In this document: one piece after another, positions 495-44,911 of the stretch
Layout of the letters: each line of letters opens with the position of its first letter
How positions within the stretch are numbered: position 1 is the first letter of the stretch
IMG/VR virus record: IMGVR_UViG_3300018080_000167
Span: 1-64,000 of that record
DNA: 64,000 nucleotides
Strand: one strand, 5' to 3'
From: a virus
Position numbers and translations under genes: made by a program
Notes under the pieces: generated by a model
The model's database searches: none
The model's input: the letters and a program-made list of their open reading frames with translations, nothing else
What the model was told of the DNA's origin: nothing

Positions 495-1208
495 TTACCA
501 ATTTGGAAATAGTCCTTCAAGACGCGCCATTATATCTATGTCTTCTTGAGAAACATGCCTCCAACATCTCTTCACCTTATTGTCATGGTCTGTCTTGAGT
601 CCATTCCATAAATTAAACTTTGCTCTTTTTATCAAATTAAAATTATTAAATACTATATCTTTTGTTTGTAAAATCTTTGTTTTATCTCGTTGAGCCTCTA
701 AATTATTTTTACTTTCAAATTCCCATATTGTAAAACCCCTTTTCAAGTATTTCATCAAGAATTTTCGTTTCCAAATTGAAGGTTTGGTTGTCATTCGGAA
801 TGCTGCATGTTGTGGATATAAATCAAAATTTTTGTCAAAATTGCTACAAATTGTTTTGTGCTGTCCAACAATAATTTTACCAATGTTATCTTGAGATATT
901 TTTTCTAAACATAAATTGATTTTTTCTATATCAACATCTCCAACAGGAAGTAGGTCATCCAATAAAAGCAATACATATTCATCCTCGATGTCGGCTAAAT
1001 ACTTCTTAATAGGGTCTGTCCATATACGACCATCGTTAAAGTCTGACTGCGGACCTACAGAAACCGATTTAAAATTTGAAGGCAATTCTTTTGGTTCTTT
1101 AAAACACAGAACATCTACAGATTGCCCTGGATAATGCTTATTAAAAAGTTCAGCATAAATATTCAAAAGCGGCAAATATTTATCACAAACTTTTAATACA
1201 ATTCTCAT
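495..1208 (-). CDS. Glycosyltransferase-like protein
   Basis: 237 aa. It has an acidic stretch YVLLLLDDLLP (about residues 78-88), a plausible nucleotide-sugar/metal-binding loop, and a later W-FE pattern (SIWKRKFL...TIWEFE, about 143-165) that I associate with small capsule-type glycosyltransferases. Start ATG overlaps the stop of the epimerase gene by 4 bases (ATGA) and has an AGGAGA site, implying translational coupling. Probably adds a sugar to a surface or virion glycan; donor and acceptor unknown. Confidence 0.55.
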   Translation of the reverse strand: MRIVLKVCDKYLPLLNIYAELFNKHYPGQSVDVLCFKEPKELPSNFKSVSVGPQSDFNDGRIWTDPIKKYLADIEDEYVLLLLDDLLPVGDVDIEKINLCLEKISQDNIGKIIVGQHKTICSNFDKNFDLYPQHAAFRMTTKPSIWKRKFLMKYLKRGFTIWEFESKNNLEAQRDKTKILQTKDIVFNNFNLIKRAKFNLWNGLKTDHDNKVKRCWRHVSQEDIDIMARLEGLFPNW

Positions 1209-2257
1209 AACATTTTCTCCTTTTTTACCATTTTTACCAAAAGATCAAACAAACTTGTTTTAATATCCCATTCTGGATAATGCAATTTAAACTTAGACAA
1301 ATTTGTTATATACCAAATATGATCGCCTATTCTGTTGTCTTCTAAAATATCATAGTTTTTCCAATTACTTCCATTTATTCTATTTATTGTATCAATGGCT
1401 TCTAAAATAGATGTTGAGTTGTCTCTTCCACCGCCAGCATTATACACCTCTCCACATCTTGGATTTTGTATAAAATGCCAAAACATATTTATTAGATCAG
1501 CGCTATAAATATTATCTCGCACCTGCTTGCCTTTATAGCCGAAAATATTGTAATGTTTGTTGTGTACAATACATTTCACCAGATACGACAAAAAGCCGTG
1601 AAGCTCTGTTCCTGCGTGATTTTCGCCCGTTAAACAGCCGCCCCTAAAGATAGCTGTTTGCATTCCAAAATATTTTCCATATTCTTGCACCATTATATCT
1701 GCGGCAACTTTAGATGCGCCAAAAATAGAATGTTCTGACTGATCTATACTCATAGTTTCATTTATAGTATACAGATTGTTGTTAAAGTCATAAACTTCAT
1801 AACGCATATCTTCTTCAACTAACCCTGGTAAATAATTAGGCATATCGCCATATACTTTATTACTGCTTGTAAAAACGAATACAGCGTCATTACAATGTAA
1901 TCTTGTAAGCTCCAAAAGATTAAATGTTCCAACAGCATTAATGTGAAAGTCAGTCAAAGGCTCTTTAGCTGCCCAGTCATGAGATGGTTGTGCAGCAGTA
2001 TGTATTATAATATCAAAAGGGTGTTTATTAAATATTTGCTCCAAAGCCTTGTAGTTTCTTATGTCGCAATTGTAGTGTTCATATTGTGACAAACATTTAA
2101 GTGAGTCTGCAGTCTTTTTTGTAGATGCATTTTTGCCAAAAAAGTATTGTCGCATATTGTTGTCAATACCATAGACGCTATAATTTTTGTTAATAAAAAA
2201 TCTTACTGCTTCTGATCCTATCAGTCCTGCAGAACCAGTTACCAATACATTCGCCAT
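1205..2257 (-). CDS. NAD-dependent epimerase/dehydratase (extended SDR)
   Basis: 350 aa. N-terminal Rossmann motif VLVTGSAGLIGSE (residues 4-16), FTSSNKVYGD in mid-protein and a HSIFGASK segment where extended SDRs normally have YxxxK: the catalytic Tyr position is Phe. The overall pattern (FRGGCLTG, KQVRDNIYSADL, RIGDHIW) resembles a subfamily often labelled CDP-paratose 2-epimerase-like, in which I recall Phe at this position, so it need not be inactive. Likely converts a nucleotide sugar for the glycosyltransferases in the same operon. Confidence 0.75.
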   Translation of the reverse strand: MANVLVTGSAGLIGSEAVRFFINKNYSVYGIDNNMRQYFFGKNASTKKTADSLKCLSQYEHYNCDIRNYKALEQIFNKHPFDIIIHTAAQPSHDWAAKEPLTDFHINAVGTFNLLELTRLHCNDAVFVFTSSNKVYGDMPNYLPGLVEEDMRYEVYDFNNNLYTINETMSIDQSEHSIFGASKVAADIMVQEYGKYFGMQTAIFRGGCLTGENHAGTELHGFLSYLVKCIVHNKHYNIFGYKGKQVRDNIYSADLINMFWHFIQNPRCGEVYNAGGGRDNSTSILEAIDTINRINGSNWKNYDILEDNRIGDHIWYITNLSKFKLHYPEWDIKTSLFDLLVKMVKKEKML

Positions 2258-2287
2258 TACCCCCCCTTTTTTTTATTTTTACCTCTA

Positions 2288-2863
2288 TTAAAATTGATAA
2301 TTAAAATTTTCAATATCTTCTTGATAAAAATCTTCAATTAATTTTATAGCCTTTTCATCTCCTTTGTAAAATTTTTTATAACATTTATTTTTTCTTTTTT
2401 TGCTTTTGTTCTTTTCTGGTAATTTTTTATATTTTATTCCTAATTTTTTACACAATAATTTCCAATCTTTATCTAATGTTTCAAATTTGCATATAAAATC
2501 AACTTCTATTTTTTCTTTATTGTTTTTTAGCCAGTTACTACAAGTGTCAAATGACCAATTTAGTCCCTTATTTTCTCCAAAGATTATTTTTATCCAGTCT
2601 GTAAAATTATATTTATTAGAATAAATAAATTTTTTCCCCTGTCTTTTTTTATGGAAATATAATGATAAAACCCTATCAAATGGATTTCTTACAATTGACC
2701 AAATAAAAAAATTATTAAATTTTTCCTGCCCATTTTTTTTAATATAATATTTAAGATTATGGTTTTTTTCTTTTGTGTTTTGTTTATTAAAAAAATGATG
2801 TACTGAAGTTCCGGCTGTTTTAGTAATGTGTATGAATATAAAATTATTATTTTCACAAATCAT
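2288..2863 (-). CDS. Sulfotransferase (family 2-like)
   Basis: 191 aa. Both PAPS-binding elements are visible: HITKTAGTS (residues 12-20, 5'-phosphosulfate loop) and VRNPFDRVLS (58-67, 3'-phosphate site). Such enzymes transfer sulfate from PAPS to carbohydrate hydroxyls. It is one of three in the cassette, so the phage probably decorates a glycan with sulfate. The stop overlaps the next gene's region by 4 bases, as elsewhere in this operon. Confidence 0.8.
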   Translation of the reverse strand: MICENNNFIFIHITKTAGTSVHHFFNKQNTKEKNHNLKYYIKKNGQEKFNNFFIWSIVRNPFDRVLSLYFHKKRQGKKFIYSNKYNFTDWIKIIFGENKGLNWSFDTCSNWLKNNKEKIEVDFICKFETLDKDWKLLCKKLGIKYKKLPEKNKSKKRKNKCYKKFYKGDEKAIKLIEDFYQEDIENFNYQF

Positions 2864-3357
2864 TTTTTTGCCACCATAATATCTTTTTTCTTTGAGCTTT
2901 TCCCACCACCATTCTCATAATAGATTTTATAATCACTACATATTTGTAATAATTTCTTTTTTACTTTTTTCTTTTTGACTTTATAGCTATTGAACAACGA
3001 CACATCATCTATTAAAATACATGGCGTTTCTTTTACGTTCGATATAATGATATCTAATTCTTCAAGAATTGGACTCCAAGAATTTGTATGTGCATCGAGC
3101 CAAAATGTTATTGGCCCATTAATATTTTTAACAACATTTTTTAAAAACTCTCTAGAGTCATTTGTGTAAAAATGTATTTTGTCAATATCATTCAGTCTTT
3201 CCTTGCATATTGGTATTCTTTCTTCGTCTACTTCTGTTGTCCAAATTTCTTCAAAGCCAACACTTAATGCATTTAACGATGTGTTGCCAGTTGCCGTTCC
3301 GGTTTCTACAAAATTTTTATTTATATATTTTTTTAAAGTCTCTATTTTAATTGGCAT
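2860..3357 (-). CDS. SAM-dependent methyltransferase-like protein
   Basis: 165 aa. FVETGTATGNTS (residues 16-27) looks like a degenerate SAM-binding glycine loop, TTEVDEERI like the acidic end of strand beta-2, and ITFWLDAHT (about 83-91) is typical of a group of small class I methyltransferases found in polysaccharide clusters. Overlaps both neighbours by a few bases. Substrate unknown; probably a sugar. Confidence 0.6.
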   Translation of the reverse strand: MPIKIETLKKYINKNFVETGTATGNTSLNALSVGFEEIWTTEVDEERIPICKERLNDIDKIHFYTNDSREFLKNVVKNINGPITFWLDAHTNSWSPILEELDIIISNVKETPCILIDDVSLFNSYKVKKKKVKKKLLQICSDYKIYYENGGGKSSKKKDIMVAKK

Positions 3358-4180
3358 TCTCTTTAGTCCATTCTTCTACTATCGCCTCTTTAATTTTATA
3401 CTGTTGTTTTATCGCCCATTTTTTTCTGTTAATATATCTATATTTTTTAAAATTACTTTTTTCAAGAATATTTTCTACTATGTGATTTTTCAATCCTTTT
3501 TCCTTAAGTTTTAATTGTATAAATGGCAGCCTTCTATAATGTACCAATAAGCCATAAAAATAATGGTCTAACAATTTTTCAAAGACATCAAAAAGATAAA
3601 ATAACTCTCCTTTTATAAAAAATGAATCCTGATATGAACATAATAATTTATAACCTTTACTTTCGAAAATCTCATTTATAACAGAAAGCGACTGCTGTAT
3701 ATTATTTGATGCAATATCTGCCGATACCCTTGGATGAAACGGTGGCAGCATCTGTCCACCCTCTATGCATACCACTGTCGGTAAATATTTTTCAATAGAT
3801 TCAAAAATTTCTACATCTAAACCGTCTACATCAATTGAACAAAAATTTATATGTTGTCTTCTTATAAATCTATCACATATGTTATCAAAATGATTTTCAC
3901 TGTTTTTGTCGCTGTTTATAAAAGCATTTGCAATAACAATTCTTTTCTGGTCTTTATAATTATTTTTTAATTGTTTGAATCTTTTTTCATTGCCCTCTAT
4001 AAAAAATCCGTCCCATCCTTCATCGAATAACTTGCGACAATTTGACCCACGTATTCCATCAATGGCTCCAAATTCAACAAAAAAACCCCTCCAAATTTTT
4101 AATACTTGCATAATTTTTTCTATAATGCCATCATTTCCAGTAAAGCTATATTTATCTTTTCTATAGTCTAATAAGTTCAT
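3347..4180 (-). CDS. FkbM-like methyltransferase
   Basis: 277 aa from the ATG that overlaps the upstream stop as ATGA; a longer reading frame exists but would overlap by 55 bases. FFVEFGAIDGIRGSNC (near residue 33) is the SAM loop and INFCSIDVDGLDVEIFE matches the FkbM pattern ending in D-x-D/E-G. The last 80 residues are lysine-rich and hydrophobic without a recognised domain. FkbM enzymes methylate hydroxyls of sugars or polyketides. Confidence 0.65.
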   Translation of the reverse strand: MNLLDYRKDKYSFTGNDGIIEKIMQVLKIWRGFFVEFGAIDGIRGSNCRKLFDEGWDGFFIEGNEKRFKQLKNNYKDQKRIVIANAFINSDKNSENHFDNICDRFIRRQHINFCSIDVDGLDVEIFESIEKYLPTVVCIEGGQMLPPFHPRVSADIASNNIQQSLSVINEIFESKGYKLLCSYQDSFFIKGELFYLFDVFEKLLDHYFYGLLVHYRRLPFIQLKLKEKGLKNHIVENILEKSNFKKYRYINRKKWAIKQQYKIKEAIVEEWTKENAN

Positions 4181-4878
4181 GATAATCGTCCCTTTGTTCT
4201 GTTGCGCGAACCGCTTGTGTCTGCATTCCAAAACGGTTGATTTTCTAAAATATAAATATCACATATGTTATGAAAATTTTTTGCCCTTGGAATTTCAGCT
4301 TTCTTGGCTACATTGTTGGGATCAAAATCTTTCCACAAATGATGTAACAACTTTGTTCTTGTAAAATTTGGATAATCGCAATAATTTCTACTGCTCAAAG
4401 TAAATTGTTCTTTGCCAATATTGATCGTATCAAAATCTTTTGTTTTTTTGCCATTAATATATGATCGTGTTCCAACAAATCTTTTATTTGTGCCTTTAAG
4501 CCCCTTGTTTCGCATTGTTTGTATGTGTCCAGCATTCCCATATTGTTGAAAAAATGCTTCTATTGACGCCATATCTATTGTTCTATCAAGAAAAAAATCG
4601 TTTTGAACATACAATAGAATATCACCGCTTTTCTCCGCGCTCTCAGTTATTTTCTTGAGGGTAATTGATATCCCTTTTCTTTCTTTATTTTTTATAAATT
4701 GATCAACAAAGTCCAATGAATTTATATATTCATCAACCCTTTTATCTTTAGATGCGTCGTCCCCTATTATAAAATACGCATCCATTAATTCAGGATTATA
4801 TTTTACTATGCTATCGACACACTTTTTAAGGAAAGAAAGTCTTTCACATGTTTGAATACCAACAACAAATTTCATCAT
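4177..4878 (-). CDS. Glycosyltransferase, GT2-like
   Basis: 233 aa. Starts MMKFVVGIQTCERLSFLKKC, then IIGDDASKD (about residues 37-45), the usual GT-A nucleotide-binding loop, and LLYVQNDFF (about 88-96) at the expected DxD position, here xND. The start was chosen because it overlaps the upstream FkbM stop and follows GGGGTGAT. Probably transfers a sugar in the same pathway. Confidence 0.6.
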   Translation of the reverse strand: MMKFVVGIQTCERLSFLKKCVDSIVKYNPELMDAYFIIGDDASKDKRVDEYINSLDFVDQFIKNKERKGISITLKKITESAEKSGDILLYVQNDFFLDRTIDMASIEAFFQQYGNAGHIQTMRNKGLKGTNKRFVGTRSYINGKKTKDFDTINIGKEQFTLSSRNYCDYPNFTRTKLLHHLWKDFDPNNVAKKAEIPRAKNFHNICDIYILENQPFWNADTSGSRNRTKGRLS

Positions 4879-5480
4879 ATCACCCCAATCATTTTTAACC
4901 AATGTGCAATTCTTATTTGGTGTGTTTTTCCCCTCATTGCTTGAGATTGTGTTAAATAATTATCTTTATTAAATTTATTAAGCTTATCTTTTAAATATTT
5001 TTTTAAATGCTTCTTGCCATCTATTTTTCTAACATCAAAATCTATCATCAAATGATTTATTTTATCATACTCACAACTATTTAATAAATCATCTACTATA
5101 TCAATCTCTGCACCTTCGGCATTAATTTTCATTATAACATAGTCATCATTTGAAATATTTTCTTGAAACCAATCTGTTGCTCTTACAAACTCACATTCAA
5201 TATCTCCATTTGGTTTTTTACGTTTTCCATTATATTTTTCTTTAAAAAGCGTTCCACCAACATGTCCAGCATTATAAATGATAGAACGGCAGCTTCTATC
5301 CCATAGCCCAAATGCATTGATTACAAGTTTGTCATCGTTATATTGTTCTTTTATAATATCACAATTAGACACAACTGGTTCAAATGTGTGTATAATATCA
5401 AAGTGATATTTTTCTTTCAACACCTCTTCCACTGTTTCACCGTGATGTCCACCAACATCTAAAAATATTTTCATCATCAA
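4875..5480 (-). CDS. FkbM family methyltransferase
   Basis: 201 aa, compact. IFLDVGGHHGETV (residues 5-17) is the SAM loop, HTFEPV the beta-2 end and VIMKINAEGAEIDIV (about 126-140) the FkbM signature, where homologs have K-x-D-x-E-G. It overlaps both neighbours by 4 bases. Likely O-methylates a sugar in a phage- or host-surface glycan. It is better conserved in its motifs than the other FkbM-like gene at 3347-4180. Confidence 0.75.
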   Translation of the reverse strand: MMMKIFLDVGGHHGETVEEVLKEKYHFDIIHTFEPVVSNCDIIKEQYNDDKLVINAFGLWDRSCRSIIYNAGHVGGTLFKEKYNGKRKKPNGDIECEFVRATDWFQENISNDDYVIMKINAEGAEIDIVDDLLNSCEYDKINHLMIDFDVRKIDGKKHLKKYLKDKLNKFNKDNYLTQSQAMRGKTHQIRIAHWLKMIGVI

Positions 5481-6271
5481 GCCTTTCTTATGTCTTTAAT
5501 ATTCCTTAATGGATGATTATCTAAAATTTCTGGATGTTCTCCATCGAATTTTTTCAAAGAAAATTTACCAAGATAAAAATTATATGTAGCTTCTTCTAAT
5601 GGAATTTTTTCCCAATTATTATTAAACCATCTTTCCATCCCTGGTACAAATCCACTTGTTTTGTGTCTTATGCGCATCCTTTCGGTGGGTTTAACCCACT
5701 TTAGATGGTGAAAATATGTATCTTCATTCAAAATAATATGATTTTTTCCTACATTTTTAGCATTGTGTGTAGGTTTAAAATACATGTCTGGATTAACTTT
5801 AAAAATAAAAGCACGCTTCTTAGGATTGCTATGTATAATTAATTGCCAATCAAAAGAAAAGGCAAATTCTTTCCCGAAAAATTTAATTAAGTCTGGCTTA
5901 TCATTATCCATTATATCTATCATTTTTTCTATCGCTGAGTGGAACCAAATTTCGTCCACATCTAATGGGATGAGGTAATCTCCAGCAGAACAATAGCTTA
6001 AAGCGCGATTAAAATTTTCGCATTGATTTTTTCTGTAGTTATTATGTTTTCTTGTCGTATATTCTAATTTAATTCTATTAGGAAATTCTTTTGTCTTATC
6101 TGAAATGACATCAAGCGTCTCGTCCGTAGAACGTTCAGGTATTTCTTGGTGTGCTGCAAATTGTGAGCCTTCACAAATATATATCAAATCACAAAATTTT
6201 AATGCATTATCAATTTGATATCCTACCCAATCCTTTTCATTATATGCTTGTATAAAACCTATTTTTTTCAT
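5477..6271 (-). CDS. Glycosyltransferase family 2-like protein
   Basis: 264 aa from the ATG overlapping the preceding stop (ATGA). MKKIGFIQAYNEKDWVGYQI is a typical GT2 start, and YLIPLDVDEIWF carries the DxD metal motif (DVDE). RSTDETLDV resembles the loop after the first strand in GT2 enzymes. The long C-terminal half (KKFDGEHPEIL) has no recognised module. Donor sugar cannot be predicted. Confidence 0.7.
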   Translation of the reverse strand: MKKIGFIQAYNEKDWVGYQIDNALKFCDLIYICEGSQFAAHQEIPERSTDETLDVISDKTKEFPNRIKLEYTTRKHNNYRKNQCENFNRALSYCSAGDYLIPLDVDEIWFHSAIEKMIDIMDNDKPDLIKFFGKEFAFSFDWQLIIHSNPKKRAFIFKVNPDMYFKPTHNAKNVGKNHIILNEDTYFHHLKWVKPTERMRIRHKTSGFVPGMERWFNNNWEKIPLEEATYNFYLGKFSLKKFDGEHPEILDNHPLRNIKDIRKA

Positions 6272-6906
6272 TTCCACCCCATATATGCATTGCCATTTTT
6301 GCTTAATATATATTCTGCACGATCGCCACACAGCTCTCTTATATGCTTTGACAGTGTGAATGTGCTTTTGAATTTCTGCTTATTGCCATTTTTGATCATT
6401 TTGTCATCTGGGATGTTTCCAGTAAAGTCGAAGATAGTTGTCCTTATCGCACCATGTTCCGTGGGTTTTTCTCCCCTGATCTTCTGGCATTTATAACACA
6501 ACACATTAAGGAAATCATCAGATAGTTGACAATAGTCGAAATATAGTCCGTGACTTGCTATAATTTTTTGTCCATCCTGTTTTTCTGCTATACAATATCC
6601 AATTTTTTTATTATCAAAAATAAATTTTTCTGGTTTAATAATTATATTTGAATCACTATGTAAATAAAATAATGGCTTTTGAAGGGCTAAAAATCTATCT
6701 CTGAGGAACAATAGTCCAGCTTTAAAGATAAACCTCTTGTGACTAAGCGAACCCCGCACATATTCAAGCGATTTGGCGTACTTTTCTACGTCAAGGTGTT
6801 CTGCTATGACTGGAATTTTAAGCTCTTCACAGCGCTGTACAAGCCTTTTAGCGTGGTGTTTGTGTGAGCTTGTATACCAAGTCCAAAATGTGGGATAATT
6901 ATGCAC
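6268..6906 (-). CDS. Probable glycosyltransferase-like protein
   Basis: 212 aa beginning with a GTG codon (GTGCATAAT). FYLHSDSNIIIKP (about residues 80-92) is the only DxD-like element, and the N-terminus (WTWYTSSHKHHAKRLV) resembles nucleotide-diphospho-sugar transferases that handle short chains. The gene overlaps a sulfotransferase upstream and a GT2 gene downstream. The family assignment is tentative. Confidence 0.4.
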   Translation of the reverse strand: MHNYPTFWTWYTSSHKHHAKRLVQRCEELKIPVIAEHLDVEKYAKSLEYVRGSLSHKRFIFKAGLLFLRDRFLALQKPLFYLHSDSNIIIKPEKFIFDNKKIGYCIAEKQDGQKIIASHGLYFDYCQLSDDFLNVLCYKCQKIRGEKPTEHGAIRTTIFDFTGNIPDDKMIKNGNKQKFKSTFTLSKHIRELCGDRAEYILSKNGNAYMGWK

Positions 6907-7486
6907 GACAAGTGCCCTTTATAACATCGAAATCTTTTTTATATCTTTTATAAATTTTAATAATTGTTGAGTCTTTAACATCTTTTATATTTACAAATTT
7001 TTTACTTCTATTTTCCCAAGGAAATCCGCGAGTAATATCAAATAATTTGCCTATTTCAATAATATTATCTGGCAATTTACTGAATATTAATATTTTGGTT
7101 ACTATTTGTAAGTCATCGTCAAAAAACCACCTGTATTGATTGCCGAGCATATAATTAGATATTAATTTTCCTTTATACTCATCTATTTGATCAACAAATT
7201 CATCAAATGTAGTGTTTTTTAGCGCCCTCTGAACATTTTTGTCGTGCTGAATGCCAACGCCGCCGCCTTTATAGTGATTAAAAACCGACATTAAACGATC
7301 AATAGGGTTTCTAATGACGCCAAACGAAAAATAGTCGCTATATTTGCCAGCAGCAAGCTGATTTCTGATGCGCCAGTCCTTTTCGTGCGGATTTCCAACC
7401 GTTTTTCCAGTAAGAAAAATCTCAACGCTTTTTCCTGCGTTTTTTGGAATGTGTAGAAAAATTAATTTTTTATCTTTTAAAATCAC
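6899..7486 (-). CDS. Sulfotransferase (family 2-like)
   Basis: 195 aa from a GTG preceded by GAGAAGG; an ATG six codons earlier is an alternative. LIFLHIPKNAGKS holds the PAPS 5'-phosphosulfate loop and FGVIRNPIDRLMSVF the 3'-phosphate site. It overlaps the preceding sulfotransferase gene. A second PAPS-dependent enzyme so close to the first suggests sulfation at more than one position of the product. Confidence 0.8.
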   Translation of the reverse strand: MILKDKKLIFLHIPKNAGKSVEIFLTGKTVGNPHEKDWRIRNQLAAGKYSDYFSFGVIRNPIDRLMSVFNHYKGGGVGIQHDKNVQRALKNTTFDEFVDQIDEYKGKLISNYMLGNQYRWFFDDDLQIVTKILIFSKLPDNIIEIGKLFDITRGFPWENRSKKFVNIKDVKDSTIIKIYKRYKKDFDVIKGTCRA

Positions 7487-8153
7487 AATTAAAAACCTTC
7501 TCATTAAGATGTTTCAAGTCATTTGTACAATAACTATTAAATATGCTATTATTATTATACGCTTTCCATCTTTCAAGAACTTTCATATCTTGAGCGCGCC
7601 CTTGATACTTCATTTGATCAAAAGAACTGCCATTGGCATTTTTTGGTATAAAATTTATGCCCTCATCTGTGAAAGGAATATCAAAATTATCGCATATCCA
7701 CATACGATATGCTTTATCTTTAAACCACTTGTCAAATAAAATATATTGCTTTTTTCCATTCAGTATTTCGCAAGCATATTCAAACCAAGCATTTGTAGAT
7801 TCAGCCAACCTTTGTTTGAGCGATCTTTTTTCTGTTGATCTTATTAATGATGCAATTGTATTTCTAACGTCTCTTAAAACAATAATTGATTCTGCTTCAA
7901 TATGGTTTTCTACCATATTAATATCATCTATTTTAGCATCTTCAAAGCTATAAATTATTTTTTTACTATCTGAGCCAGCATATTTGGTTTTCTTAACTCC
8001 GCCAAAATAATGAATTTCTCCATCTACTAATTTATATGGGTCAACATCATTGTGATGTATCACAGTTTCCTTCATCTGTTTTGCAAACCAAGAAAGAACT
8101 GCATGGTGCCCGCTTCTTTTTGTCGCTACAAACAATATTTTTTTGCCAAGCAT
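7470..8153 (-). CDS. Sulfotransferase-like protein
   Basis: 227 aa. VATKRSGHHAVLSWF (residues 9-23) is the RSGHH form of the sulfotransferase P-loop and IIVLRDVRNTIAS (90-102) the second PAPS element. The mid-region is diverged from the other two enzymes here. It is the first gene of the cassette proper and starts 3 bases from the zinc-ribbon gene stop. Confidence 0.75.
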   Translation of the reverse strand: MLGKKILFVATKRSGHHAVLSWFAKQMKETVIHHNDVDPYKLVDGEIHYFGGVKKTKYAGSDSKKIIYSFEDAKIDDINMVENHIEAESIIVLRDVRNTIASLIRSTEKRSLKQRLAESTNAWFEYACEILNGKKQYILFDKWFKDKAYRMWICDNFDIPFTDEGINFIPKNANGSSFDQMKYQGRAQDMKVLERWKAYNNNSIFNSYCTNDLKHLNEKVFNCDFKR

Positions 8154-11592: not shown

Positions 11593-11802
11593 TTATTTTA
11601 ATAGTAGTGTCCAAAAAATAACGCCCATAAACAAAAAAGATAACAAGCAGCCAACTAAAGCCTCTCCGTCTGCATCGTCTTTATCAATAAATATATCTTC
11701 TAATTCTGATATATTAAAAATGCGTGACAAAAAAAATATGGCAAGCATTATACCAGACAATGCATGTATGAACCCAACTACAATAAGAATTGTTGTGATC
11801 AT
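11593..11802 (-). CDS. Small two-helix membrane protein
   Basis: 69 aa with two hydrophobic helices (about residues 3-27 and 48-67) separated by an acidic loop (EDIFIDKDDADGE). Its stop region is near the MazG-like gene and its start overlaps the helicase stop. Holin-like in size, but nothing else supports that. Confidence 0.6.
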   Translation of the reverse strand: MITTILIVVGFIHALSGIMLAIFFLSRIFNISELEDIFIDKDDADGEALVGCLLSFLFMGVIFWTLLLK

Positions 11803-14267
11803 TTTTCTACTCCGAAATAATCTAAAATAAAATCTCTTTTGTCCTTGGCTCTTACAAATCGTTGCATTATTTCAAGTTTGTGCAGCTTTTCTTTTTTGCG
11901 ACTTTCGCTTAAATCAAAATCTATTCCAAGTTTGTCAAAACTTTTCACATTATCTGACAATACCATCACGCCTCTTTTGGGTGCTTTAAAAACGCCCCTT
12001 TTTTTCAACTCTGTTAAACATGTAGATATCTGTGCCCTTTCCAGATTGTCTTTCCCTATCATTTGTCCGAATGCACTATATGTAATTTTGTTTTCTTCTC
12101 CTACTACAAGATTATTGAGCAAATGTACATAAACTCTTTTATATAATTCAATTGATGGATGGCTAATGTCAATAAGATATTTTCTAAGGCGTATATCATT
12201 CGGATAATAAAATAGCACACATTCAGATGGCTTTCCGTCCCGCCCTGCGCGTCCCACTTCTTGGTAATACGCCTCTATAGAGCCTGGAATTGTATAATGC
12301 AAAATGTGTCGTATATTGCTCTTGTCGATGCCCATACCTATTGCAATTGTTCCCACGATACAGGAAATATCATTATCCATAAAAAGCTCTTGTGTTTTCT
12401 GTCTGTCCTCTTTTTTCATATCTGCGTGATATGGCAACGAAAAATCATCTATATGATAATTTTTTTTAACCCTTTCATTTATTTCTTTAGACAATACTTC
12501 GCAATCTTTTCTTGAGCCACAATAAACAATCATAGGTGGGAAACAACCATTCTTTTCATATATCGAATTAAAATAATTATAAAATGCATCTTTTTTATCA
12601 ATTGCGTATCCATGATATTCACATTTAAGCGTAAGCTCTGGACGATCAAAGCCACCTATTTTTATAAATGGCTCTTTCATTTCAAGATTTTTTGTGATAT
12701 CCCACACAACCCTTTCTGTGGCTGTTGCTGTTAGTGCTACAATACTTGGATCTCCTGCAAACCTCCTTATTTTTCCTATGTCACGATATTCTTTTCTGAA
12801 CTCGTGCCCCCACAGACTTACGAGATGTGCTTCATCTACCGCAATAAGCGATACATTAATCTGTGATATTATATCTTTAAAATATTCTGTGCAAAGCAAT
12901 TCTGGTGATACATATACCATTTTATATTTATTATCAATAATATCTTTAACAATCTTTCTTTTTTCTTTTTGTCCAAGAGTGCTATTTAAAAATGTAGCTG
13001 GAAGGTTACGGTTTTTTAATGCCATTACTTGATCAGCCATTAGTGAGATCAGTGGAGAAATTACAAGTGTTACGCCATCTTTAAGTAGGGCTGGCAATTG
13101 ATAAAGCATAGAATTATGTGTGATTGTAAAGTCTTCTAATAAATATCTATGATCTTTATCAAGCTGAAATCCATAATATTGTTCATTGTCAGATATTTTT
13201 TTTATAATAAATCCTGAAACTAAGGAGTTTGTTCTTTGTCGTCTTTTACAAGCTTTTTTGCGTTTTATTCTTAATGGTATTTGAGAGCAGTCGCCAGATA
13301 TATGTATCCTATTGTATAATTTATTAGGTCCGCATTTTCCATGATGTGCATGAAGTCCTAAACTTCGTGCCAAAAACAATACATTGTCAGCCATTTTGTT
13401 AGATTTACAAGAAAACTCGTATCCACTATGTCCTAAATACCCATCTGTGTCTAATAATCCAGCTAATAATTCTAATCTATCATATTTGTTTCTATAAAGA
13501 TATTGTTTTGGAATAAATTTATCGGCACACGCAATTGGTAATAATCCCAATTCTCTCAGGGCTGTTTTCAAAGGATTTTTCTGTGGTCCACGTTTTTTAT
13601 TAGAAAATCTATATGCATTACAGCCACAACTATTTTGATATATGACACATTTAATATCAAAAATATCAGCCAATTCTTGACATGCATCCTGTATCTCTAC
13701 ATCATTTTTTGTTACCGAAACACTATTGTCGTGTGCTAACGACCCATCTCCTAATATCATTCCAAGATAATATGGTGGAATTTTATATTGTTTTTCTATT
13801 TGTCCAAATTTATCAACTCCTGTTCTTATTAATTTATAAATATGTTTTTTATATTTACTCCACGTCAAATATTCTTTGATGGATACATCTATAATTGGCT
13901 TGTTGTCATATCCTTTTCCTTCGTTGGTTTTTATTAGACTGATCTTATGGTGCGGAGTAGCGCCAAATGCTTTTCCTTTATGCGGAATTATGTTGTATAT
14001 TACATCTCTTCCACGAGCAAGGGACAAGACAACTCTAGGCGTGTTGTCTGGACCCATAAGCTTGTCGCCAACTATTATATTTTCCACATTTTTTATAGAG
14101 CCATCATACATTATAACTTTTGTTCCAGCCGGATGGCATTTTCCCCCACCTGTCGGCATTACTGCGAGCGTATCTCTGTTTTCCATAATGTTTTTAATTG
14201 TTTCTTCTTGTCCTGGACGGAAAGAGTCGAAACCAAAATGTTTTTTCAATGCTTTTTTTAAGTCCAT
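11799..14267 (-). CDS. recQ: RecQ-family DNA helicase interrupted by an intein
   Basis: 822 aa precursor; removal of the 342-aa intein leaves a 480-aa 3'-5' helicase. Host protein motifs: FRPGQEETIKNIM (motif 0), PTGGGK-S (Walker A, split by the intein), VISPLISLMADQV, AVDEAHLVSLWGH (DEAH), ALTATATERV, GTIAIGMGIDKSN and YYQEVGRAGRDG (motif VI). The C-terminus ends soon after KRDFILDYFGVEK; the four Cys of the usual RecQ zinc domain are absent, though the RDFILDYF helix remains, and there is no HRDC domain. It probably unwinds recombination or fork intermediates. Confidence 0.9.
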   Translation of the reverse strand: MDLKKALKKHFGFDSFRPGQEETIKNIMENRDTLAVMPTGGGKCHPAGTKVIMYDGSIKNVENIIVGDKLMGPDNTPRVVLSLARGRDVIYNIIPHKGKAFGATPHHKISLIKTNEGKGYDNKPIIDVSIKEYLTWSKYKKHIYKLIRTGVDKFGQIEKQYKIPPYYLGMILGDGSLAHDNSVSVTKNDVEIQDACQELADIFDIKCVIYQNSCGCNAYRFSNKKRGPQKNPLKTALRELGLLPIACADKFIPKQYLYRNKYDRLELLAGLLDTDGYLGHSGYEFSCKSNKMADNVLFLARSLGLHAHHGKCGPNKLYNRIHISGDCSQIPLRIKRKKACKRRQRTNSLVSGFIIKKISDNEQYYGFQLDKDHRYLLEDFTITHNSMLYQLPALLKDGVTLVISPLISLMADQVMALKNRNLPATFLNSTLGQKEKRKIVKDIIDNKYKMVYVSPELLCTEYFKDIISQINVSLIAVDEAHLVSLWGHEFRKEYRDIGKIRRFAGDPSIVALTATATERVVWDITKNLEMKEPFIKIGGFDRPELTLKCEYHGYAIDKKDAFYNYFNSIYEKNGCFPPMIVYCGSRKDCEVLSKEINERVKKNYHIDDFSLPYHADMKKEDRQKTQELFMDNDISCIVGTIAIGMGIDKSNIRHILHYTIPGSIEAYYQEVGRAGRDGKPSECVLFYYPNDIRLRKYLIDISHPSIELYKRVYVHLLNNLVVGEENKITYSAFGQMIGKDNLERAQISTCLTELKKRGVFKAPKRGVMVLSDNVKSFDKLGIDFDLSESRKKEKLHKLEIMQRFVRAKDKRDFILDYFGVEK
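13113..14138 (-). mobile_element. Intein with LAGLIDADG-type homing endonuclease, in the RecQ Walker A
   Basis: Residues 44-385 of the helicase. It starts with Cys (CHPAGTKVIMYDG, splice block A), has a block-B-like ATPHHKISL, two LAGLIDADG-like motifs (LGMILGDGSL and LLAGLLDTDGYL about 100 residues apart) and ends YLLEDFTITHN before Ser (His-Asn then nucleophile). All residues needed for splicing are visible. Insertion between Lys and Ser of GGGKS disables ATP binding until splicing occurs, the classic conserved-site choice of inteins. Confidence 0.92.
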
Positions 14268-15589: not shown

Positions 15590-16054
15590 TTAATACCATC
15601 TTGTAATTTGCATAATAAATTTATAATCAATTTGCTTTCTTTTTACTGGTCCAATTTCTGGACTGTCAAGAGCCACCTCTCTGTTGTCTCCGAGTACAAA
15701 AAATTCATCTTTCCCAAGTTCCATCATAACTTTATCTGGATTTTTAACTGTTGTAGATATATATTTTTCATTCATTCGTAAAATTTGTCCATTTGTGTCA
15801 AGTATTGTTACTGTGTGTCTATTTACAAATACTGTTTCGCCTGGAAGTCCAACTATGCGTTTAACTAGATATTTATTTTTATACCTAAAACCAATAATAT
15901 CTCCCCTATTTACATTATTTGTTGATAGACATAAACACATATCTCCATCTCCAAGTGTGGGGTTCATCGATGTCCCTACAACGTGAATAATTTTAAAATT
16001 CCAAGCAAAAATAATACATAAAATTAATATAATAAATAAAATTTTAAGTCTCAT
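15590..16054 (-). CDS. lepB: Signal peptidase I
   Basis: 154 aa. One N-terminal membrane helix (residues 4-18), then the catalytic Ser in GTSMNPTL (Ser29), the general-base Lys in YLVKRIVGLPGE (Lys65) and the GDNREVALDSPEIGPV box. This is a full Ser/Lys dyad enzyme, at the short end of the family. It would cleave signal peptides at the outer face of the membrane. The start overlaps the Panacea gene stop by 11 bases. Signal peptidase genes are uncommon in phages. Confidence 0.9.
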   Translation of the reverse strand: MRLKILFIILILCIIFAWNFKIIHVVGTSMNPTLGDGDMCLCLSTNNVNRGDIIGFRYKNKYLVKRIVGLPGETVFVNRHTVTILDTNGQILRMNEKYISTTVKNPDKVMMELGKDEFFVLGDNREVALDSPEIGPVKRKQIDYKFIMQITRWY

Positions 16055-25425: not shown

Positions 25426-25440
25426 TTTTTGATTATTTTT

Positions 25441-29948: not shown

Positions 29949-30620
29949 TTAATAGTTTTCGGCCTCTTCTCTTGTCATAAAAAAATGAATACCGTGTGTA
30001 CAAGTTTTCCGTATATCCGTATCGAAGTGATCCGCATAGACCGTTTCACCCTCTTTGTACACTACACCCGTATCATATAATCCGCACCCATTGCCCTCGA
30101 TTACCTTCACGTATTCAGCCCTACATTTTCTTGAAGTGGGCACTGATATGCGGGCCGCCTCGGCCGGAATACGAATCTTTATGACACCCCCCCTTACGGC
30201 CTTGTATGCGATAAAACTGCCCTCCTCCGGGCATACCGCGTACGGTGAAAATTTGCAGCCATCAATATTCGCGCCCCACAAATCCGCGCGCCGCAAATCC
30301 GCGTCCCGCAAATTCGCGCCCTGTAAATCCGCGCGCCGCAAATCCGCGTCCCGCAAATTCGCGCCCTGTAAATCCGCGCGCCGCAAATCCGCGCCCCACA
30401 AAGCCGCATCCCGCAAGTCCGCGCCCCACAAAGCCGCATCCCGCAAGTCCGCGCCCCGCAAATCCGCGTCCCGCAAATTCACACCCCACAAATCCGCGTT
30501 CCGCAAATCCACGTACCGCAAATCCGCGTCCCGCAAATCCGCGCGCCGCAAATCCGCGCCCTGCAAATTCGCACCCTGCAAGTCCGCGCCCCTTTTAATT
30601 TCATAGCCTTTTACGTTCAT
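29949..30620 (-). CDS. Pentapeptide-repeat protein with DUF5758-like C-terminus
   Basis: 223 aa. About 22 consecutive A(D/N)LxX pentapeptides (residues about 10-118) should form a right-handed beta helix like those of Qnr/MfpA DNA mimics. The C-terminal part (FIAYKAV, VIKIRIPAEAARISV, RKCRAEYVKVIEG, GIHFFMTREEAENY) follows DUF5758, often paired with pentapeptide repeats in phages. The coding region is far richer in GC than its neighbours, so it may be a recent transfer, partly explained by the repeats. Confidence 0.85.
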   Translation of the reverse strand: MNVKGYEIKRGADLQGANLQGADLRRADLRDADLRYVDLRNADLWGVNLRDADLRGADLRDAALWGADLRDAALWGADLRRADLQGANLRDADLRRADLQGANLRDADLRRADLWGANIDGCKFSPYAVCPEEGSFIAYKAVRGGVIKIRIPAEAARISVPTSRKCRAEYVKVIEGNGCGLYDTGVVYKEGETVYADHFDTDIRKTCTHGIHFFMTREEAENY

Positions 30621-32623: not shown

Positions 32624-32806
32624 TTACATTTGACGCAATTGTTTTATCTTTTGTAACATCTCATGTTGCTTTGTCCGCAATTGGAGCAGGTCGAGGCATT
32701 CTGTGAAGTGTGCATTTTTGTCGAGCTGTTTGAGTTGTTCGTGACTAAGTTGTTGTGCAATTTCAACGAATGCTTCTACAATCTGTGAGCGCGGCTGTAA
32801 CTTCAT
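32624..32806 (-). CDS. Hypothetical 60-aa helical protein
   Basis: MKLQPRSQIVEAFVEIAQQL, helical with conserved-looking Gln/Leu runs. TTTAGGAGGAAATT is a perfect ribosome site. It is transcribed from the long non-coding gap to its right. Unknown function. Confidence 0.7.
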   Translation of the reverse strand: MKLQPRSQIVEAFVEIAQQLSHEQLKQLDKNAHFTECLDLLQLRTKQHEMLQKIKQLRQM

Positions 32807-32819
32807 AATTTCCTCCTAA

Positions 32820-33320
32820 ATGGTATTTTAATAAGAAAAAAAGCACTTTTTGTTTTTTAATAATACTACAAATAAAAAGAAGAATAAGAGAGAAAGGAGT
32901 AGAAAGGGGAAGGGAGTTAGGAAAAGGTTGGTGGGTTGGGTGTTTCCTATTGTGAGATGCGCCAAAAAAATGATAATTCTCTAACGATTTTTCCGTTTTG
33001 CTTCCGCCATTAACGTTGCCGCCCCTGCTATTACTCTTAGTAATTGCTGTTTTTAGCCAAAAAATTAACTTTTTTTTAAAAGGAGCCATTATTATTTTTA
33101 TTCTCCCGACTTTTAATAATATTATTATAACGAATATTATCTAACGTATTATTGCCAAAAAAATCCTTTTTTACATTAATAACTTCACTAATAATAGCAT
33201 TTTTACTGCTTTTTTTATGTCGCCATTATTATCTAAGGTATTACGGGTGTGCCCTTATTATACAAATCGATACAAATCGTTGTTTTTGAGCCAAAAATGG
33301 CACTTTCATTTAACACTTCT
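32820..33320. other. Non-coding gap
   Basis: No convincing gene. The left part is a purine-rich run (32870-32940, GAGAAAGGAGTAGAAAGGGG in part) and there are hairpins ATTACT/AGTAAT and GCCA/TGGC. Two copies of the TATTA-n-GTATTA repeat occur (33135-33156, 33225-33247) and ACAAATCG is repeated at 33262-33280. Leads into the iterons. Confidence 0.6.
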
Positions 33321-33470
33321 AACCGTCATATGACACTTTCCAACCGTCATATGACACTTTCTGAACCGTCGTGTGACATTTTCCAACCGTCATATGACAC
33401 TTTCTGAACCGTCGTGTGACACTTTCCAACCGTCATATGACACTTTCTGAACCGTCGTATGACGACTTCT
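33321..33470. repeat. Seven phased iterons (21/22-bp)
   Basis: Copies of AACCGTCATATGACACTTTC or AACCGTCGTGTGACACTTTC begin at 33321, 33342, 33364, 33385, 33407, 33428 and 33450. Spacings alternate 21 and 22 bases, so sites lie on one face of the helix; core GTCATATGAC is palindromic and from copy 2 on alternates with GTCGTGTGAC or a close variant. A degenerate copy sits at 33301-33320. Typical of an origin-binding, partition or multi-operator site; no other function is shown. Confidence 0.85.
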
Positions 33471-33476
33471 CAATTA

Positions 33477-34639: not shown

Positions 34640-34675
34640 TACATATAATATCTACTATATTGTAATTTTTTCCTA
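34640..34675 (-). promoter_or_regulatory. P1-family promoter, copy 4
   Basis: TAGGAA (34670-34675), 19 bases, TATTAT within ATATAGTAGATATTATATGTAG. Leftward, 16 bases before the HTH gene's coding region. Confidence 0.75.
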
Positions 34676-36488: not shown

Positions 36489-36710
36489 AAAATAGAATGA
36501 AAAATATATTTTTTTACTTATACATCTATATATAATAAACAACATCCTATGTATGGCAGTGTACATTTTTTGTACATCGACATAAGATGTACATCATTAA
36601 AAGATACACTAATACGTTCCGTTATATCTTTACAATTAAACCTGTATTTAATATTTCCATCAATAAATTAGCTATTAAAATTGAAAGCTGAAAAAATTTT
36701 AATAAAAAAA
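36489..36710. other. Divergent intergenic region with TGTACA operators
   Basis: The switch point between the leftward and rightward genome halves. TGTACA palindromes occur at 36560-36565, 36571-36576 and 36588-36593; the last extends to GATGTACATC. Such a cluster between divergent P2 elements looks like an operator. No gene is seen. Confidence 0.6.
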
Positions 36711-38702: not shown

Positions 38703-38987
38703 ATGTACGATGAAAATGAATTTGAAAAAATGGAGTGTTTGTTAGATGATTGTCGTGGGATTTATATTCCGCAAGCCTTTATTGAGTGTTATAGTTATGA
38801 ACAATGGGGCATTTCCGAAGAAAATGCTACAATATTACTTAAAGGTCCTGAACCTGAAAATGAGCTTTACTGGGAAACTTGGGATGAGGTAATGCGCGAT
38901 GCCGAATATACTGATGAGTTCGGTAACGTTTGGAACTTGTTTCAAGATGGCGACCTTTTCGCTGTTGTTTACAAAGAGTGTGAATAA
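38703..38987 (+). CDS. Hypothetical 94-aa acidic protein
   Basis: MYDENEFEKMECLLDDCRGI, acidic and aromatic, ending KECE. TTGGGAGGTTATT precedes the ATG. Terminator downstream. Unknown. Confidence 0.65.
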   Translation: MYDENEFEKMECLLDDCRGIYIPQAFIECYSYEQWGISEENATILLKGPEPENELYWETWDEVMRDAEYTDEFGNVWNLFQDGDLFAVVYKECE

Positions 38988-44409: not shown

Positions 44410-44425
44410 AAAAAAATATATTTTT

Positions 44426-44453
44426 CAAGGTCGGATAAAACCGACCTTTTTTT
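44426..44453 (+). terminator. Rho-independent terminator
   Basis: AAGGTCGG/CCGACCTT stem followed by TTTTTTTG, after the 161-aa gene. Confidence 0.8.
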
Positions 44454-44834
44454 GTGCTGAAATAATTATTAAAATAAAAAAATATTATTCAATTGGCATA
44501 GAATTTTCCACAAAGAGTATATGTAAGGTAGCGGGTAGGGTTCTTGGAATCAAAGGTACTTTATGAAAAACAGGAAAATCGGCGGGGGGTGCCCAAAACA
44601 ATTGTCCAGCCCCTTTTTTCATTAGGTGGGTAGTTTATATGGGCGGGGGAGGGTTTCTTTTTGATTTTTATTGAAAAATTATTTTTTTTGGGTTGAGCAT
44701 TAAATTTTTTCGGGGGGGCTTGTTGAGCATTAATTTTCTGAAGAGTTGGGGGACACGTTGAAAGGATTGGGTACTCCAAAATAATTGGGGGACACCCCAA
44801 AATAATTGGGAGACATTATTAAATTTAAAAAATA
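44454..44834. other. Non-coding gap, G-rich repeats
   Basis: No gene. Two GTTGAGCATTAA copies (about 44692 and 44721), G runs (GGCGGGGG, TCGGGGGGGC) and the 21-bp tandem repeat at 44776-44815. Strongly G/T-rich strand compared with its surroundings. Confidence 0.6.
44776..44815 (+). repeat. Two-copy 21-bp tandem repeat
   Basis: CCAAAATAATTGGGGGACA at 44776-44794 and CCAAAATAATTGGGAGACA at 44797-44815. Each has an inverted CCAA/TTGG. A truncated relative (GTTGGGGGACACGTTG) lies upstream. Possibly an operator pair before P1 copy 7. Confidence 0.7.
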
Positions 44835-44873
44835 TTGGAAACATTCTCTGATTAGTAGATATTGTAATATAGA
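44835..44873 (+). promoter_or_regulatory. P1-family promoter, copy 7
   Basis: TTGGAA (44835-44840), 19 bases, TATTGT in GATTAGTAGATATTGTAATATAG. Rightward; heads the operon 44912-53002. Confidence 0.75.
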
Positions 44874-44911
44874 GGTGGGACAGTTACTTTTACCCTTAGG
44901 AGAAAATTATT

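Follow-up and report, generated by a model that had tools for sequence, protein, structure and literature searches.

A phased, iteron-like repeat array in a divergent uncultured phage as a candidate replication origin

What might be the role of seven 20-bp direct repeats that recur about every two helical turns within a non-coding gap of an uncultured phage? The window, here the whole 64,000-base stretch that was analysed, comprises bases 1-64000 of a 74,773-base virus contig in which terminal repeats are absent. It is part of a divergent phage, whose terminase has relatives in three uncultured contigs, G006 (150,882 bp, 54%), G007 (95,873 bp, 53%) and G008 (79,804 bp, 57%), and the DNA around the array has no close relative in phage records. 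G006 is syntenic with the contig, such that the left arm corresponds to G006 100-128 kb and the right arm to G006 15-35 kb, and its gene direction switches near 3.25 kb. Because this syntenic relative encodes Pol III alpha, a Toprim primase, DnaB and RecA, the contig probably represents about half of a genome that carries a replisome of its own; given a relative with Pol III alpha, primase and DnaB, an origin is therefore to be expected. A terminase 57% identical is also found in L171 (QNCM01000003.1), a contig binned as Candidatus Omnitrophota, which may be a host hint or a binning error and is too little to name a host. The end of the contig beyond the window (G000:C1, 73716-74773) carries long tandem repeats with units of 78 and 63 bp, which probably ended the assembly.

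The seven units start at 33321, 33342, 33364, 33385, 33407, 33428 and 33450, so that successive units are spaced by 21, 22, 21, 22, 21 and 22 bp, exactly as an earlier note on this DNA, made from the letters alone, had reported. All share a single orientation and the consensus AACCGTC-RTRT-GACACTTTC, also written AACCGTC(A/G)T(A/G)TGACACTTTC. The GTC and GAC arms are invariant in every unit (7/7), and most of the variation affects the spacer (1-2 bp) or the RTRT centre, while the few differences outside the centre include ATTTTC in one unit and GACTTC at the end of the last. The centres read, from unit 1 to unit 7, ATAT, ATAT, GTGT, ATAT, GTGT, ATAT and GTAT. The alternation of ATAT and GTGT cores that had been described thus holds from unit 2 on, but units 1 and 2 are both ATAT and the last core is mixed; likewise, the palindrome attributed to the cores is perfect in four of the seven, the others departing from it.

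This count is far above chance. Allowing up to two mismatches, AACCGTCRTRTGAC matches 12 times in the window, and the array accounts for 11 of these; 0.49 would be expected, and 100 shuffles yielded a maximum of 4. The core GTCRTRTGAC occurs seven times in the 74.8-kb contig, always inside the array (0.19 expected). No copy of the core was found elsewhere in the contig, the 20-mer had no match in the viral contigs searched, and blastn of the array against phage and plasmid records gave no match. A relaxed form of the phased pattern matched at least 119 stretches, mostly as isolated chance matches; the longest chain among the matches listed (L081) has five units, with a sequence different from that of the array.

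How did such regularity arise? The best TRF score for the array is that of a 43-bp unit in 3.8 copies (91%), and units 2-7 amount to one 43-bp unit repeated, near-identically, three times over. Because it is this unit that recurs, the exact phasing does not stand for seven independent events: the regular spacing is largely inherited through tandem duplication, and the 21/22 alternation was probably fixed once and then copied. At 10.5 bp per turn, the sites drift by 34 degrees per 43-bp pair and by 103 degrees overall, with a vector strength of 0.82, rising to 0.93 at 10.6 bp per turn. The placement of all sites on one face of the DNA, as initially proposed, is therefore right roughly, but with a slow twist along the array. 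The spacing is compatible with cooperative binding on one face, as in iteron-type origins, in which a half-turn separation of two iterons abolishes cooperativity (PMC4980987). A period of 43 is not divisible by three, so that no reading frame is continuous through the array and a coding repeat is excluded. A coding repeat is present, in contrast, at 30270-30592; this pentapeptide array has a 15-bp period and belongs to a pentapeptide-repeat protein (29949-30620) with a DUF5758 domain at its end, and the GC content of that kilobase (46%) is much above that of the contig.

The coordinates of the locus and of its candidate binding proteins are collected in Table 1. The gap is bordered by the zinc-ribbon gene and by 32624-32806 (-), the next convincing gene, which has a good ribosome-binding site and from which a leftward run of small genes starts at 32806. 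Both the non-coding position of the array and its adjacency to a zinc-finger gene were borne out, the 3' end of the zinc-ribbon gene abutting the array, whereas the AT-rich setting ascribed to the locus applies to the left flank only. The array itself is GC-richer than the genome and its duplex stability, in 100-bp windows, lies at the 85-92nd percentile of the contig, while 33050-33200 lies at the 2-18th, windows starting at 33050-33100 being among the weakest 2-3%. This flank may be an unwinding element; stretches that melt more easily are present elsewhere in the contig. Neither TTATNCACA nor anything within one mismatch of TTATCCACA, as DnaA boxes, was found in the 670-bp gap, and the nearest exact TTATNCACA is at 38979.

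Table 1. Features of the array locus and candidate binding proteins (window coordinates).
Feature	Coordinates	Strand	Remarks
Non-coding gap holding the array	32807-33476		670 bp; array at right end
ORFs listed within the gap	32763-33089, 33152-33289, 33249-33407		Look spurious
G-rich purine tract	32880-32965	+	Same gap; turns local GC skew positive
AT-rich left flank	33050-33290		Short direct repeats GCCATTATTAT, TATTATCTAA, doubled ATACAAATCG
Degenerate extra unit	33301-33320	+	13/20 to consensus, left end of array; TRF array start 33306
Direct-repeat array	33321-33469	+	Seven 20-bp units, 1 or 2 bp between units
Zinc-ribbon and coiled-coil protein, 103 aa	33477-33788	-	PF13408, 22.9 bits, below the 25.3 cut-off
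Coiled-coil protein, 75 aa	33939-34166	-	Gene set with zinc-ribbon gene
Small protein, 60 aa	34166-34348	-	Gene set with zinc-ribbon gene
HTH-like protein, 86 aa	34364-34624	-	First gene of set; PF13551 HTH_29, E=0.0017, below cut-off
Promoter-like class-1 motif ATAGTAGATATTATA	34644-34658	-	Just upstream of HTH-like gene
AAA ATPase, 373 aa	21584-22705	-	46% identical in syntenic relative G006

On a larger scale, gene direction switches at about 36.5-36.8 kb, that is, 3.1-3.3 kb from the array, in agreement with the distance of about 3 kb given earlier. Cumulative GC skew, which had been suggested as a check on an origin, has its minimum at 36-37 kb, at this switch and 3 kb from the array rather than at the array itself. 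Because the skew goes with the coding strand in either arm and is negative over the island of minus-strand genes at 42.1-43.0 kb, it tracks gene direction and lends no independent support to an origin; we therefore rejected it as evidence.

Several proteins encoded on the contig could bind such an array. The four genes to its right form a close leftward set with the HTH-like gene at the head, whose product also matches phrog_7061, an HTH DNA binding protein, at E=0.024; its structure model is helical and of low confidence (pLDDT 50), too poor for a fold search. Lying 0.9 kb from the array, the HTH-like protein would be, by proximity, the nearest candidate binder, and it is at least as good a candidate as the zinc protein. 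Neither protein has relatives in phage records, and the zinc protein has none in viral contigs. The AAA ATPase, a possible initiator or helicase loader, is a further candidate since initiators and helicase loaders are often AAA proteins; its model (pLDDT 38, two sequences) is likewise too poor for a fold search. A PHROG match to a “CI-like repressor” at 15590-16054 was rejected as array binder, the gene being a signal peptidase.

Judged from their copy number, unit length, single orientation, near-two-turn spacing and confinement to one non-coding gap, the repeats are well supported as an iteron-like, putative protein-binding array. Iteron origins carry 2-7 iterons, mostly of 17-22 bp (PMC4980987), and the array has seven direct repeats of 20 bp in one orientation, the same number as R6K, whose seven iterons are of 22 bp (PMC4980987). 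Like the iteron origins of theta plasmids and P1-type phages (R6K gamma origin, pPS10, P1), it combines direct repeats of about 20 bp, one orientation and a period of about two turns with an AT-rich neighbour. Unlike these origins, however, it was found with no linked Rep gene or DnaA box, its core is palindromic whereas iterons are bound by Rep monomers, and it has no sequence match to phage or plasmid records. Rep_3 and DnaA profiles found no match in four records, with the Rep_3 controls working and half of the genome probably missing, and the RepA_N profile search had no working control. The array may well work like an iteron array, but because a Rep gene and a DnaA box were not found it is filed under no plasmid origin family, even though its unit pattern fits; what can be assigned so far is the broad class of phased multi-site protein-binding arrays. 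In lambda, too, replication is phage-encoded and the origin joins repeated initiator sites, the O-protein iterons, to an adjacent AT-rich stretch, and the array resembles it in having repeated sites beside such a stretch. The lambda origin lies inside gene O (PMC7157519), so that its iterons are within the initiator gene, whereas the array is in a non-coding gap.

Given this iteron-origin anatomy and the phage-encoded replisome in the family, a replication origin is the most likely role for what appears to be a fast-evolving site, and we favour it tentatively, with a confidence that stops a little short of even. As a docking strip, the array would receive one sequence-specific, probably dimeric protein, most likely phage-encoded, that contacts the GTC and GAC arms, while the variable four-base RTRT centre would only need to bend. 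With seven sites about two turns apart, binding could be cooperative along roughly one face, and the bound protein might bend or wrap about 150 bp, straining the AT-rich flank until it opens and a phage DnaB-type helicase can enter.

The relatives bear on this reading in both directions. None of G006, G007 and G008 has the array sequence, which counts against an origin, though only in G006 is the corresponding stretch covered, coverage of the array position in G007 and G008 not being clear. All three are distant relatives, no close one having been found, so that absence from close relatives, which the earlier note named as refuting its proposal, does not yet apply. The regularity could also have come from the recent 43-bp duplication, with no selection involved, which likewise counts against an origin. 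The largest AT-rich gap of that stretch in G006 (146269-147163; GC 0.37 in its main part vs 0.47 overall) shares with the array gap its place to the left of the direction switch and beyond the 3' end of a small zinc-ribbon-like gene. It holds three TAAGT-N15-ACTTA dyads within 157 bp, the only ones in 150.9 kb, and three such dyads arose in 0 of 100 simulated gaps of matched composition. These dyads are unrelated to the array units, and the zinc proteins of the two phages have no sequence similarity. In G007, a long AT-rich gap (4494-5742) is also 3' of a zinc-ribbon gene, the start of which resembles that of the array-side zinc-ribbon gene over 20 residues. Arrays of period 17-25 in G006, G007 and G008 are weak, none clearly above shuffles. 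Noticed post hoc and in few genomes, these parallels suggest that a locus of this type recurs while the sequence of its sites changes quickly. One could go further and picture the family's origin as a replaceable module, an AT-rich non-coding gap beyond the 3' end of a small zinc-ribbon gene, with an unrelated dyad family and a small binder peculiar to each phage, while the replisome is conserved, a picture that we regard as rather improbable as it stands; the same low standing attaches to its pairing of dyads GTCATATGAC every 21-22 bp in the array phage with TAAGT-N15-ACTTA in G006. The origin proposed in the earlier note thus gains from the iteron-like anatomy and from the replisome and gap dyads of G006, but searches beside the array turned up neither an initiator nor a DnaA box, and the skew is uninformative.

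The main rival to an origin is an operator or enhancer array, in which a phage regulator on the seven palindrome-like sites would control the leftward small-gene set from 32806 or shut off the upstream HTH and zinc genes. The palindromic 10-bp cores would suit a dimeric HTH regulator, such as might be supplied by the HTH-like gene of the upstream set, and the array occupies an intergenic gap ahead of a leftward run of small genes, with weak sigma-70-like matches on the minus strand nearby. However, neither of the two promoter-like motif families of the contig is present in the gap; moreover, the next start codon is some 500 bp away from the sites, an operator would seldom have as many as seven in tandem, and a search of the contig never found the exact palindrome as a single copy before other genes. 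Regulation is accordingly an unlikely role, if one to be taken seriously.

More doubtful is a neutral or recently expanded minisatellite, produced by slippage of a 43-bp dimer and serving no function, in keeping with the three near-identical units, the absence of the array from G006, G007 and G008, and the presence of other tandem repeats in the contig. Drift of this kind sits poorly with GTC and GAC arms that stay intact in all seven units while changes gather mainly in the spacer and the central RTRT, and with a period close to two helical turns; besides, the contig's other strong arrays (15, 63 and 78 bp) are coding-like in that their periods divide by three, which 43 does not.

The earlier note had also suggested a partition site, that is, a centromere of parS, parC or tubC type for a plasmid-like prophage stage. 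Direct-repeat centromeres (parC, tubC, pSM19035 parS) and phage parS resemble the array in their tandem direct repeats, to which small proteins attach (PMC5016525, PMC7157519). Centromeres of types Ib, II and III usually take the form of direct-repeat arrays close to a par operon (PMC5016525), and near the array a small HTH-like protein is encoded. Unlike in those systems, no ParA or ParB was found for the array phage, their profiles having no match in four records with controls working, and this part of the proposal is unsupported. No ParM- or TubZ-like motor occurs among the annotated proteins of at least 230 aa on the contig, itself incomplete (the ParM profile was searched with no working control, and probably half of the genome is missing), nor was an integrase or repressor recognised, so that partition is very improbable. 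Least probable of all is a role of the repeats as hairpins, in RNA or single-stranded DNA, for instance in a leftward transcript or during replication. The array does fold better than shuffles on both strands (z about -6 for RNA, -3.3 for DNA), but this is automatic with repeated palindromes; moreover, any unit can pair with any other, and changes in the core are not compensated, GTCGTGTGAC being no longer fully self-pairing.

If the array is an origin, it would offer a short, testable one for a lineage of large uncultured phages with a relative that has its own Pol III replisome, and its comparison with the G006 dyads would show how fast pairs of initiator and site are exchanged. An operator array would instead mark the switch of an early region; under either reading, the repeats could be used as bait for the DNA-binding protein of the phage.

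The contig carries further elements of note. An intergenic motif, TTAGTAGATATTATA, occurs at 471(-), 10639(-), 24092(-), 34658(-), 35251(-), 41081(+), 44852(+) and 53025(+), in the orientation of the downstream gene and, in most cases, preceded at about 20 bases by a TTGGAAA-like box; it is probably a phage-specific promoter class and is absent from G006 and G007. A second motif, TTTTTCAATCCNNNNTGCAGTAGATGTGAGG, is a putative leader or promoter element found on the minus strand at 25427, 29694, 30872, 32503, 36491, 42671, 43073 and 43237 and on the plus strand at 36708, 38274, 38644, 39620 and 40146; it runs the same way as the neighbouring genes, lies mostly just upstream of one and sometimes overlaps the ribosome-binding site, and it was not found as a family in G006, G007 or G008. 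In the non-coding stretch 44410-44911, about 210 bp contain five runs of at least five G, and a 21-mer (CCAAAATAATTGGGAGACACC) is nearly doubled; the long gaps of G007 (5.0-5.7 kb) and G006 (147.0-147.2 kb) likewise contain G-rich runs. Finally, the SF2 helicase gene at 11799-14267 contains an intein insertion with a LAGLIDADG-type homing endonuclease, and a phage glycan-modifying cluster at 1205-8153 encodes an epimerase, glycosyltransferases, an FkbM-like methyltransferase and two sulfotransferases.
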